Shown: piece after piece, positions 2,059-6,052 of the stretch
Numbering within the stretch: position 1 is the first letter of the stretch
Layout of the letters: every line of letters starts with the position of its first letter
IMG/VR virus record: IMGVR_UViG_3300042691_010246
Span: 1 to 24,283 of that record
Origin: a virus
DNA: 24,283 nt
Reading direction: 5' to 3' (one strand)
Translations under genes and position numbers: made by a program
Notes under the pieces: model-generated
Seen by the model: the letters and a program-made list of their open reading frames with translations, nothing else
Told to the model about the DNA's origin: nothing
Database searches by the model: none

Positions 2059-2065
2059 ACCTCCT
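2059..2065 (-). promoter_or_regulatory. Strong ribosome binding site of the holin-like gene
   Basis: On the minus strand AGGAGGT lies five bases before the ATG at 2054 (TGAGGAGGTCACCATG). The TGA is the stop of the C39-like peptidase gene, so the stop codon and the Shine-Dalgarno sequence overlap. Confidence 0.8.
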
Positions 2066-2814
2066 CAGGTGATGGGTTGAGCGATGATGGCCCAGCCGTT
2101 GCCGGGCGCGTACCGGTAGCTGTTGCCTGATGGCAGCACCTCCCACCGGCGGCAGAAGTTCTTGAACGAGTAGCGCAGCCTGGCGCCCCAGTTGTTGACG
2201 TAGCCGCCGTTCACCACGTCCATCTCGCCGAACGGGTCGTGGACGATGAAGTTGGTGGCGTCGTAGCCGATGGCGATCAGCCAGTGGCCGTCGCCGTGAA
2301 GGTTGCCCAGGCCGCCCTTGTGGATGCAGCCCAGGGGCACGGGGATCCCCTTGTCGATCTGGGCCTTCACATCCGCCGGTGTGCAGGTCTGGTCCAGGTG
2401 GGCGGTGACGCCATAGTGGGCCAGGGCCTTGATCTGGTTCGGGGCCTCGGTGGTGTCGCCATAGCGCAGCACCCGGCCCAGGTAGGTGTCGTCGCCGTTC
2501 GGGCCCTTGAGCATCCCCGGCTTGAGCGTCTCCAGGAGCATCGCGCAGCTGGAGCTGAAGCACATCCGCATTGCGTGCGCGGTGCTGCTGTCGCGCTGGC
2601 TGTAGTAGGGCACCTGCAGCGGGTTGCTGAGCGTGCGTGGTTGCTCCTGTTTCCCTGCCCCCTGCCAGGTCTGATACCAGCTGGCGTCGCGCTTCTTCAG
2701 GCTGGCCGGCACCGCCTCCCAGAACTGCTGCACGGCTGCACGCTGCAGCGGCAGGCCTTTCCAGTGCTCGAAGAACGGAACGATGTCAGGGAGCAGTCCC
2801 GGTTCTTGAGTCAT
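2065..2814 (-). CDS. C39-like papain-fold cysteine peptidase, candidate second endolysin
   Basis: A 249-residue protein. After an N-terminal helical part (1-65) comes a C39_2-type peptidase domain. VPYYSQRD (68-74) starts it; RMCFSSSCAM (83-92) carries the probable nucleophile Cys85, which aligns with the Cys of CGPTSLAM in this family; GDGHWLIAIGYD (174-185) carries His177; VHDPFG (191-196) carries Asp193. The likely target is the peptide part of peptidoglycan, because the gene sits between a coiled-coil membrane protein and the holin/lysozyme pair. The alternative is processing of a phage or host protein. I used the ATG at 2814; an upstream in-frame start at 2886 would overlap the preceding gene by about 100 bases. 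There is no signal peptide. I recall close relatives in cyanobacterial prophages. Confidence 0.8.
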   Translation of the reverse strand: MTQEPGLLPDIVPFFEHWKGLPLQRAAVQQFWEAVPASLKKRDASWYQTWQGAGKQEQPRTLSNPLQVPYYSQRDSSTAHAMRMCFSSSCAMLLETLKPGMLKGPNGDDTYLGRVLRYGDTTEAPNQIKALAHYGVTAHLDQTCTPADVKAQIDKGIPVPLGCIHKGGLGNLHGDGHWLIAIGYDATNFIVHDPFGEMDVVNGGYVNNWGARLRYSFKNFCRRWEVLPSGNSYRYAPGNGWAIIAQPIT

Positions 2815-3073
2815 GGCTGCTGGCCTCAGCCGGTGGTCCTGCAAAGTGTAGCCGGGCACCCACTGCGGACCAGAGCACCGGTGCAATCAAGCTGATCACC
2901 ACCGCCAGGATGACGCCCTGTGCGACGCGCTTCTCGACCTCAACCAGTCGCTTGAATGCATCGGCCAGGTCTGTTCGCTTCTCGGCGACGGAGACCATCA
3001 CAGCATCGAGCTTTCCCTCCAGGGCGCCGAGCTTGTGGTAGATGTCTCCGTGCGAGACCTCGTGCTCCGGCAT
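2786..3073 (-). CDS. Coiled-coil protein with one membrane span, lysis-associated
   Basis: A 95-residue protein. Residues about 8-58 are charged and helical with heptad-like spacing (KLGALEGKLDAVMVSVAEKR…LADAFKRLVEVEKR). Then one membrane span follows (about 59-77, VAQGVILAVVISLIAPVLWS) and a short polar tail. The layout recalls XhlA-type 'hemolysin' proteins and other small lysis-cassette proteins; a spanin subunit is also possible. I chose ATG 3073 over 3091 because GAGG lies seven bases before it (GAGGTCCCACTATG). The 3' end overlaps the start of the peptidase gene by 29 bases in another frame, more than the 1-8 bases usual in this array. Confidence 0.7.
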   Translation of the reverse strand: MPEHEVSHGDIYHKLGALEGKLDAVMVSVAEKRTDLADAFKRLVEVEKRVAQGVILAVVISLIAPVLWSAVGARLHFAGPPAEASSHDSRTGTAP

Positions 3074-3096: not shown

Positions 3097-4923
3097 TTAC
3101 TTCAGCCGCCAGTATTCAGGAGTGCGCCCGTAGTAGCTGGTGTAGCCACTGGGCGGTGCAACCCAGCTGAACGTCCCCTTGCTGGAGCTGTTGCTGATGA
3201 TCGATCCATCGTTCTGCACGATGCCGATGTGGGGATACGGCGGGTTGCCGTTGTCGCGCATGATAGCGATGGCGCCAGGCTCGGGCCCTGAGAGCAGGGT
3301 GCCGGCGCCGCCCGCCAGCGTGCTGCGCACGGTGGGGACGTAGTTGCTGTTGCCCCACGGCGGAGTGATTCCTGCGCTTCTCAATACCTTGTTCACGGCA
3401 TAGACGCAAGCGTTGTTGCCGCCATCCGGGCCGCCCCTGGTGTTCATCCCCCTGGCGCTGGCCGCGGCCTTGGACAGCAGTGCCGCCTTCTCCGTCGCTG
3501 GCTTGCCGTTGTTCGCTCCACCCCCGCTGGCCCAGTCGGTGTTCTCCTCGCCCTGGGTGCCGCACTCCACCCGGGTAGTGAAGCCGCCACCGGCCAGCTC
3601 GTGCACCACCTCCTTGATCAGCCAGGTGCCGTCCACCTCCGCGCGGAAGCCTGACAGGGTGACGTCGCCATCAGCATTCAGCTCCGGCCGGCCGGGCGTT
3701 GTCACGCTGATCCGCACCTCCCCGCTCTTGAGCGCCTCGAGCTTGCTGGCGGCGGCCTCCTTCGCCTCGTCCTCGCTGCGGAACAACTGCTTCTCCTCGA
3801 ACACCGGCAGCGGGCCTTTCTGCCCAGCGGTGAGCACCTTCTCCGTGTTGCTCTCGCGGTCCAGGTACTTGACCTTCACGGCGTCGTAGGCGCCACGGTT
3901 CTTCAGCGTGGCCCGCCACTGGGTTGCGTCGGTGCCCTTGATGCTGAAGCTGCCGCGCGTGCCGCTGGGCAGATCGCCGAGGGTGGTGCTGGCGCCCGCC
4001 CGCGCGGCCGCGAGGTAACGCTTGTAGGCGCCGGAGCGGTAGACCGACCAGGCGCCGAATCCCTGCTGCTGGTAGATCGCCCGCGCTGCCCTGGCATTGG
4101 TCGCCGGGTCGTAGAGCTGCTCATTGCCCGACAGGCCCAGCTGGCGGCGACGCTCCGGCCCGAGGCCGCCGATCATGTTGATCTGCCACAGGCCATAGCT
4201 CAGGTCGGGCGGCTTGCTGTTCAGCGCCCGCACCTTGCCGCCGGATTCGGCCATGGCGATGGCGCCCATGGTGACGGCATCGTTGCCAGTGAAGCCAGCC
4301 TGGCGCGCCAGGGCGACCGCTTGGCCGGCGCTGATCCTGCCCGTGCTGTTGGGCACCGGGCTGGCGCTGCCCTTGCCCCTGGGCGCCACTACGAGGGTGC
4401 CGTCAGCCGGCTTGATCGTCGCGCCGTACTTCACCGATAACCGGGTGAGGAACGACTGGTCGGACTCGCTGGTCTGGTCTTCGTGCTTGACCGCCACCTC
4501 GCCCAGCTTCCCCTTCAGGACCAGCTGCAGGCCGTTGCGCTTGGCGATCTCCTCGGCGATCTTCCCCAAGGTGGTGTCGTGCCAGCTCTGGGAGCGCTGC
4601 TCCTTTACCAGCTCGGGGGCGGTCTGGGCGGCGGTGCCTTTGATCACCATCGACCGTGGCCCGTTGCTCAGGTCCACCTCGTCGACGGCGTAGCTGCCCA
4701 TGTAGACCGGGGCCTGGCCCTCGCCGCGCCAACCCAGCCACACCTTCAGCCATGCGCCAGAGCGGGGCACCGGCACCTGGGCGTTGCGATCGTCGAGCGT
4801 CACCTCCAGGCTGTCGGACTGCTGGCCGGCCTGGTCGGTGATGCGGATGGACAGGAGGCGATCGGCGATGATCCCCGTGAGGTCTGCGCCATCGGCCTCC
4901 AGGCGGAAGGCGGGGGTGCTCAT
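3097..4923 (-). CDS. D: Baseplate hub protein gpD with inserted transglycosylase-like domain and C-terminal cysteine-peptidase-like domain
   Basis: A 608-residue hub; P2 gpD is roughly 390. Four parts are visible. Residues 1-185 are the N-terminal half of gpD. Residues about 197-306 form a lysozyme-like/SLT domain with the likely catalytic Glu226 (AIAMAESGG) and YGLWQIN (243-249). Residues about 325-458 are the C-terminal half of gpD (…VTLSGFRAEVDGTWLIKEVVHEL…). Residues about 490-608 are a CHAP/NlpC-like domain with candidate Cys506 (NNACVYAVNKV), His565 (PHIGIV) and a polar SNSS near 578. In the P2/Mu/T4 family the hub sits on the spike and contacts the tube, and T4 gp5 likewise carries a wall-cutting domain. 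A role in local cell-wall opening during injection is inferred. The start overlaps gpX by four bases (ATGA). Confidence 0.9.
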   Translation of the reverse strand: MSTPAFRLEADGADLTGIIADRLLSIRITDQAGQQSDSLEVTLDDRNAQVPVPRSGAWLKVWLGWRGEGQAPVYMGSYAVDEVDLSNGPRSMVIKGTAAQTAPELVKEQRSQSWHDTTLGKIAEEIAKRNGLQLVLKGKLGEVAVKHEDQTSESDQSFLTRLSVKYGATIKPADGTLVVAPRGKGSASPVPNSTGRISAGQAVALARQAGFTGNDAVTMGAIAMAESGGKVRALNSKPPDLSYGLWQINMIGGLGPERRRQLGLSGNEQLYDPATNARAARAIYQQQGFGAWSVYRSGAYKRYLAAARAGASTTLGDLPSGTRGSFSIKGTDATQWRATLKNRGAYDAVKVKYLDRESNTEKVLTAGQKGPLPVFEEKQLFRSEDEAKEAAASKLEALKSGEVRISVTTPGRPELNADGDVTLSGFRAEVDGTWLIKEVVHELAGGGFTTRVECGTQGEENTDWASGGGANNGKPATEKAALLSKAAASARGMNTRGGPDGGNNACVYAVNKVLRSAGITPPWGNSNYVPTVRSTLAGGAGTLLSGPEPGAIAIMRDNGNPPYPHIGIVQNDGSIISNSSSKGTFSWVAPPSGYTSYYGRTPEYWRLK

Positions 4924-5132
4924 GGATCCCAGATCCTGAGGGTGGTAGTGGTTTCAGGGTCAGGCAGGTCTGGCAGCTCGATGGTCAGGCCCTGCGGCAG
5001 GATCGGCATCAGGTCTGCCAGGTTGGGGTTGGCCTCCATCACAGCTTCGACAGTCTGCTGGGTGCGGCCGTAGTACCGCCAGCAGATCAGGTCGACCTCA
5101 TCGAATTGGCGGGTGATGTAGAGCTGGCTCAT
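4920..5132 (-). CDS. X: Tail protein X, LysM-like
   Basis: A 70-residue protein with the P2 gpX pattern: YITRQFDEVDLICWRYYG, then VEAVMEANPNLAD, then LPQGLTIELPDLP. This is a single small LysM-like fold that in this family helps assemble the tail tube or baseplate. Length matches the family (P2 X is 67). It overlaps U at its start and D at its end by four bases each (ATGA), so U, X and D are probably translated as a coupled set. Its place between U and D is the same as in P2. Confidence 0.93.
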   Translation of the reverse strand: MSQLYITRQFDEVDLICWRYYGRTQQTVEAVMEANPNLADLMPILPQGLTIELPDLPDPETTTTLRIWDP

Positions 5133-6052
5133 TGCAGGACCAATGCACGGACAGCGTTGGTGATCGCCGGGTCGACGTCGAGGATCGATCCCAGTGTGGC
5201 AGCCTGGCTGAGCAGTGCGCCGATGGCGCCGGCGTCTTGGGGGTTGACGATGCCGGCGCTGGTGAGGCCAGGGACACCGGTGATGCGCGCCACGTCAAGC
5301 ACGGAGGCCAGGCCTGCTGCGCCCCTGGCGGCGGTGAAGGTCTGCGCCAGGTTGGTGGCGTTGACGCCCAGCGTCGCCCAGCCGGCCGCGGCCTGCGGGG
5401 TGAAGCCGTTCAGGCCGAAGGTGTTCAGGGTGGTGTTGACCTGGCTGCCAGGCACCAGGCCGGTGGCACCGATCGCCGCCAGTTGGCCCAGGTTGAAGCC
5501 GGCCTCCTGCGTCGCGCGCTGGGTGAGGCCCTGCCACTGGAAGCTCTGCGCCCAGTCGAGGGAGTTGAAGGCGGAGCCGTCACCGGTGAAGTTGGAGGGT
5601 GCTGCCGCGACGGTCTTGGCCAGTGCGGTGACGCTGAGCGGCGAACCCTTGGCGCCGGGGTTGTCCTCGCCGTAGCGCACCAGGCGAATGGAGAAGTCGA
5701 TCTGGCGGGCGTCGCCGCCGGCGACGAACACCGACCGGCCCTCGCGGATGGAGACGATGCACCACCGGCCGAGCACCCGGCCGCGGCCGTCGTTCAGCAT
5801 GTAGGGCTCGCCGCGCTCCGCCATGTCGCGCAGGGTCTGCATGGTGCCCTGCCGGCCGGAGAAGCCTGGGTAGAGCACACCGTCCAGGGTGATCTCGCGG
5901 GTGCCGACGCCCAGCCACTGGTTGGCGGGCTCGCGCAGCAGTCGGTCCTGCTGCTCCCAGCGGTAGGCGTCGTTGCGATCGACGGTCTGGGGTGAGCCGT
6001 TGGGCAGGTTGAACTGGAACGAGCCCAGCTGGTAAAGCGGGAGGCTAGTCAT
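5129..6052 (-). CDS. U: Tail protein U, with long C-terminal extension
   Basis: Residues about 1-135 match P2 gpU: an N-terminal LGSFQFNLP, then RWEQQDRL and WLGVGTREITLDGVLYPGF, then RDMAERGEPYMLNDGRGRVLG and a C-terminal strand FSIRLVRYGED. The family acts in tail assembly or termination. P2 U is about 159 residues; here 307. The extra part (about 140-307) is rich in Ala, Gly, Leu and Asn, with no motif I recognise. It could be a helical trimer extension or a baseplate contact. It overlaps the tape-measure gene by eight bases and X by four. Confidence 0.9.
   Translation of the reverse strand: MTSLPLYQLGSFQFNLPNGSPQTVDRNDAYRWEQQDRLLREPANQWLGVGTREITLDGVLYPGFSGRQGTMQTLRDMAERGEPYMLNDGRGRVLGRWCIVSIREGRSVFVAGGDARQIDFSIRLVRYGEDNPGAKGSPLSVTALAKTVAAAPSNFTGDGSAFNSLDWAQSFQWQGLTQRATQEAGFNLGQLAAIGATGLVPGSQVNTTLNTFGLNGFTPQAAAGWATLGVNATNLAQTFTAARGAAGLASVLDVARITGVPGLTSAGIVNPQDAGAIGALLSQAATLGSILDVDPAITNAVRALVLQ

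Follow-up and report, generated by a model that had tools for sequence, protein, structure and literature searches.

The tail hub and its surroundings

Can the tail hub of a P2-like phage carry, within a single polypeptide, one domain that cuts the glycan strands of peptidoglycan and another that cuts its peptides? The question is raised by a gene in a stretch of viral DNA of 24,283 bases (hereafter the window), which makes up one virus record and is probably a fragment. A sequence-only reading had taken the product for a gpD-type hub of 608 residues with a lysozyme-like domain inserted between its two halves and a CHAP/NlpC-like domain added at the C terminus, and had considered such a dual cutter essentially undescribed.

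The open reading frame runs from 4923 to 3097 on the minus strand, codes for 608 residues without interruption, as had been claimed, and is broken by stops on the plus strand. The same full-length gene is found in nine near-identical contigs (91%–97%), which rules out an assembly accident. It sits beside gpU and gpX and after the tape measure gene, the arrangement of a P2 gpD-type hub, and is followed by a separate set of wall genes comprising a C39-type peptidase and a phage lysozyme:

6045-8372: tape measure gene, preceding gpU, gpX, and the hub
5129..6052, minus strand: gpU, whose Pfam domain (E 2e-34) spans residues 10-129 of 307 and leaves a long C-terminal extension
4920..5132, minus strand: gpX (Phage_tail_X, Pfam E 1e-23), upstream of the hub
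3097..4923, minus strand: whole hub gene, gpD-type tail hub of 608 aa (Phage_GPD, PHROG 52 tail protein, R2 pyocin hub 6u5h)
2065-2886, minus strand: C39-like cysteine peptidase (PHROG endolysin family)
1417-1860: phage lysozyme (PF00959), near the C39-like peptidase

The identity of the hub body is indicated by Pfam Phage_GPD, which matches in two stretches (43.9 bits against a cut-off of 30.1), by PHROG 52 tail protein (E 5e-100), and by the R2 pyocin hub 6u5h, which aligns in two pieces covering query residues 4-188 and 332-455 (E 2e-44). Because the 6u5h match is broken in this way, the SLT domain is placed where the two hub parts join, in agreement with the insertion between gpD halves that had been proposed. 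Taken together, these matches identify a P2/R-pyocin-type gpD hub whose body is interrupted by an SLT_3 domain between residues 188 and ~324. AlphaFold gave a full-length model of only moderate quality (pLDDT 66, pTM 0.41), whose global TM-score is low owing to unreliable placement of the domains relative to one another. Its best PDB matches (Foldseek) are nevertheless tail hubs, with E values of 1e-15 to 1e-8: those of the R2 pyocin, contractile injection systems, Mu gp44-type proteins, VgrG, and A-1(L). The layout of the hub is as follows, all features lying on the minus strand:

4366..4923, minus strand: hub part 1, residues 1-186 (6u5h match 4-188 and alignment)
4339..4365, minus strand: linker 1, residues 187-195 (alignment and junction sequences)
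4006..4338, minus strand: SLT_3 lysozyme-like domain, residues 196-306 (Pfam above cut-off; profile against c-type lysozymes)
4246..4248, minus strand: codon of Glu226, predicted catalytic acid (invariant in 35/35 SLT sequences)
3955..4005, minus strand: linker 2, residues 307-323, fast evolving (alignment; dN/dS 0.5-0.6 against L003 and L008)
3556..3954, minus strand: hub part 2, residues 324-456 (6u5h match 332-455)
3469..3555, minus strand: linker to the C-terminal domain, residues 457-485 (alignment)
3100..3468, minus strand: CHAP/NlpC-P60-type domain, residues 486-608 (Pfam CHAP; AF2 model; PDB fold matches)
3406..3408, minus strand: codon of Cys506, predicted nucleophile at a helix start (invariant 34/34, and 11/11 in a wider alignment)
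3229..3231, minus strand: codon of His565, at the start of a strand (in all but L034)
3190..3192, minus strand: codon of Asn578, likely third residue, on the next strand (invariant in both alignments)

The inserted lysozyme-like domain

Pfam SLT_3 covers residues 204-293 of the hub (E 2.6e-18; 66.7 bits, where the cut-off is 27), and PF01464 likewise exceeds its own cut-off. Searched against the PDB, a profile built from 35 SLT homologs finds c-type lysozymes, with a best E of 1e-7 and with the glutamate and the YGxxQIN motif aligned; Glu226 and the stretch Y243-N249 (YGLWQIN) are unchanged in all 35. The lysozyme-like fold, together with the two sequence features on which it had been proposed, is thereby upheld. 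In the full-length model the SLT domain is poorly predicted (pLDDT 25-55), being present in only 8 of the 19 alignment rows. It is predicted to cut either as a lysozyme or as a lytic transglycosylase, two activities that its sequence does not distinguish.

The closest relatives of the hub SLT outside hubs lie in tape measure and other tail proteins, at 55%–68% identity. Scanning genome contigs with the hub gave matches to the SLT domain only, mostly in actinobacteria. In L045, L060, L071, and others, SLT_3 domains 60%–68% identical to that of the hub lie inside tape measure proteins, and these relatives suggest that tail SLT modules are drawn from a shared pool.

The C-terminal domain and its alternative

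Assignment of the C-terminal domain draws on several lines of evidence. Pfam CHAP covers residues 503-575 just below its cut-off of 26, scoring 21.1 on the whole protein and 25.7 bits (E 1.6e-5) on the isolated domain. Built from 34 sequences, an AF2 model of the domain has high confidence (pLDDT 91, pTM 0.88) and shows a helix at 37-48 followed by strands at 97-101 and 107-111; among PDB structures it comes closest to NlpC/P60 endopeptidases (4xcm, MepS) and to 2k3a, a CHAP structure, at a probability of ~1.0 with E values of only 0.003 to 0.007. Against PDB sequences, a profile made from close members found no match and one made from distant members reached an E of 0.057, so that assignment of the papain-like fold rests on the model. 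As modelled, the domain is papain-like, with the cysteine at the start of a helix and the histidine on the sheet that follows. Thus, the CHAP/NlpC-like domain with Cys506 and His565 that had been read from the sequence is borne out by the predicted fold and by residue conservation, the histidine being absent only from L034.

The domain of L034 (2605-2997) has suffered a short in-frame deletion that removed the stretch with the catalytic histidine and left the cysteine in place; given this loss, it may be dispensable or inactive there.

The same CHAP-type module occurs near the C terminus of Synechococcus phage proteins annotated as late control gene D or endolysin (39%–48% identical), and the copy in S-CAM7 scores above the Pfam Amidase_5 cut-off. 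In a genome from the family of a Cyanobium metagenome-assembled genome (MAG), a 498-aa protein (L263:10754-12250, minus strand) joins a glucosaminidase, a peptidoglycan-binding domain, and this module, and these partners speak for a peptidase or amidase acting on the wall.

Some relatives of the hub carry an M23-like domain at the C terminus instead (L020:3517-3879, L037:2496-2858, L038:7030-7392, and others). Its M23/LytM motifs are swapped: GSSGDSTGPHLD, from the end of M23, comes first and is followed by FHxGIDFG and LLHL. In a PDB profile search, two pieces of the domain match M23 peptidases in permuted order (best E 0.0014), and the two halves searched separately against Pfam gave no significant match. 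This alternative domain may be a circularly permuted M23.

Four combinations on one hub body

Three IMG/VR scans yielded a family set of 65 distinct hub rows, one of which is that of the window. Of these, 33 carry the CHAP-type domain only, 15 combine it with SLT, 15 carry the M23-like domain only, one joins SLT to the M23-like domain, and the last is cut by a contig end. A C-terminal peptidase-type domain is present in every hub whose open frame could be followed to its end (L237 is frame-shifted). When present, SLT always follows a (P/E)RGxG motif, where hubs lacking it have a short spacer. The C-terminal peptidase is hence a constant feature of the hub family and SLT an optional cassette.

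The M23-like hub of L237 (4897-6334) is broken by its frameshift into two reading frames, owing to either sequencing error or decay.

On the hub tree, six changes are needed to account for the presence of SLT and two for the type of C-terminal domain. The SLTs of hubs group together in one clade that excludes the 28 other SLTs sampled (support 97/87), and the simplest reading is that SLT was captured once and thereafter lost from, or transferred between, hubs. In eight related contigs (42-52 kb, possibly incomplete) whose hubs lack SLT, a search with the hub SLT gave no match anywhere; a search of the same contigs with the PF01464 model is less reliable, as it also missed one true SLT hub. Since there are related phages with no copy of this SLT, its activity cannot be essential to this type of phage.

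Selection acts strongly on both modules. Against the close orthologs L003 and L008, dN/dS is 0.057-0.12 for SLT, 0.07-0.14 for CHAP, and 0.10-0.14 for the hub, against 0.5-0.6 for linker 2. In comparison with 72% relatives such as L012, SLT and CHAP are ~86% identical and the hub parts 63%–68%. Both modules are more conserved than the hub that surrounds them, and their catalytic residues are almost never lost. In L036, CHAP is 91% identical and the hub only 50%–60%, which points to probable exchange of the CHAP module between hubs.

Relation to known tail hydrolases

T4 gp5/gp27 likewise has a tail lysozyme at the hub and spike, but this is one glycosidase only and is carried on the spike protein. 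Phage phi29 gp13 unites a lysozyme with an M23 domain at the tail tip, but it belongs to a podovirus with a Gram-positive host and has no hub body. The R2 pyocin hub (6u5h) and P2 gpD share the hub body with the window protein, the pyocin hub being matched over nearly its whole length; they are, however, without hydrolase domains, and at the site of the ~140-residue SLT segment the pyocin hub has ~13 residues.

The concept of a tail hub cutting both glycan and peptide is not new, and the view that such a hub was essentially undescribed was overtaken by two precedents. For gp15, the hub of the Anabaena myophage A-1(L), endoglucanase and peptidase activities have been assayed (PMC10966104); three domains are named in this hub and activity is reported for two (PMC10966104). 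Like the window protein, gp15 (PDB 8kea) is a Gram-negative myophage hub with glycan- and peptide-cleaving domains and a C-terminal peptidase. Its modules are, however, unrelated (DPBB lytic transglycosylase-like and M23, as opposed to SLT_3 and CHAP), and its glycan domains lie near the N terminus of a protein of ~899 aa, compared with 608 aa here. Enterococcal tail lysins similarly place a lysozyme-type domain (PF18013) and CHAP in one tail protein (PMC10194240), but these come from Gram-positive phages, use another lysozyme family, and lack a P2 gpD body. The Synechococcus phages ACG-2014e and S-SCSM2R (45%–48%) and S-CAM7 (39%), whose late control gene D or endolysin proteins bear the CHAP-type module, are T4-like cyanophages, and Pfam detected neither SLT_3 nor Phage_GPD in those proteins.

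What survives is a narrower claim, that the arrangement is without precedent among P2-type gpD hubs: at least 80% of the hub protein in one place was found in 0 of 50,697 phage records and 0 of 72,556 plasmid records. Shewanella phage M16-3, which seemed to cover residues 3-294 unbroken, was rejected, its hub of 369 aa leaving no room for SLT. A P2 gpD body with SLT_3 in a loop and a CHAP-type domain at the C terminus, and with it a natural set of four combinations, thus appears to be new in the collections searched. What stands out is the way in which wall-cutters are swapped, gained, and lost among related phages, like exchangeable cartridges.

Proposed function and alternatives

The hub of this P2-like contractile-tailed phage probably doubles as a virion-associated peptidoglycan hydrolase, and cutting of both glycan and peptide by one hub, as had been suggested, is the most likely reading of the predicted activities. 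Exposure of the domains at the injection site, the bonds cut, and a role in entry would then fit together as follows. The sheath would contract and the spike cross the outer membrane, after which the hub would meet the wall, its three subunits bringing three SLT and three CHAP domains. SLT would split the MurNAc-GlcNAc bond, as a lysozyme or a lytic transglycosylase, and the CHAP-type domain would cut a bond of the stem peptide, so that the tube could pass through the wall. The peptidase would be standard equipment of the phage group and SLT an optional add-on.

It is unlikely that catalysis in the virion falls to one domain alone, with the other mainly binding peptidoglycan or serving as a structural part. 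Such a division would suit the loss of the CHAP histidine in L034, the lack of SLT in most relatives, and the report of activity for two of the three domains named in A-1(L) (PMC10966104). Glu226 and Cys506 are invariant, however, and strong purifying selection acts on both modules; a binding role would not predict that exactly these two residues be kept. A further alternative, in which the CHAP-like domain would mature the hub by self-cleavage as a processing protease, is highly improbable: papain-like folds can process, and the domain does lie C-terminally behind a variable linker, but an unrelated domain from a wall-peptidase family (M23-like) fills the same position in relatives, and the same module co-occurs with glucosaminidase and peptidoglycan-binding domains in one protein. 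That the gene product is an endolysin for cell lysis, as some cyanophage homologs with the C-terminal module are annotated, is barely credible given the full hub homology, the adjacent gpU and gpX, and the separate genes for a lysozyme and a C39 peptidase.

It is possible, albeit somewhat doubtful, that the hub in this P2-like group (freshwater and possibly picocyanobacterial) acts as a two-slot hydrolase holder. Its C-terminal slot would always be occupied by a CHAP-type or permuted M23-like domain, and its loop slot by an SLT that was captured once and repeatedly lost or passed on, perhaps tuned to host wall chemistry. Four combinations on one body, with a clean insertion site, allow the benefit of a second cutter to be asked in terms of host range, injection speed, or thick walls, and the junctions mark where a hub tolerates an enzyme of 110 residues.

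A lead on the host

A 59.5-kb contig binned into the Cyanobium MAG shares its gene order with almost all of the window and encodes a CHAP-only hub of 70% identity, and an M23-like hub is found in another genome of the MAG's family. Binning error is possible and the host search, with hub and sheath, was limited to cyanobacterial genomes; hence, a freshwater picocyanobacterium, possibly Cyanobium, is a lead only. A tRNA-fMet on the Cyanobium MAG contig was dropped as evidence of host, as initiator tRNAs are highly conserved between bacteria and do not discriminate. Cyanobacteria have a thicker wall than most Gram-negatives; should the host be one of them, the resemblance to A-1(L) would hint that phages facing such walls have repeatedly adopted dual hubs.

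Further observations in the window

The Phage_P2_GpU domain of gpU stops at residue 129 of 307, and the ~178 residues beyond it are without a Pfam match. With the C39-like peptidase and the lysozyme beside the dual-domain hub, the phage of the window has four wall-degrading-type domains in three genes.
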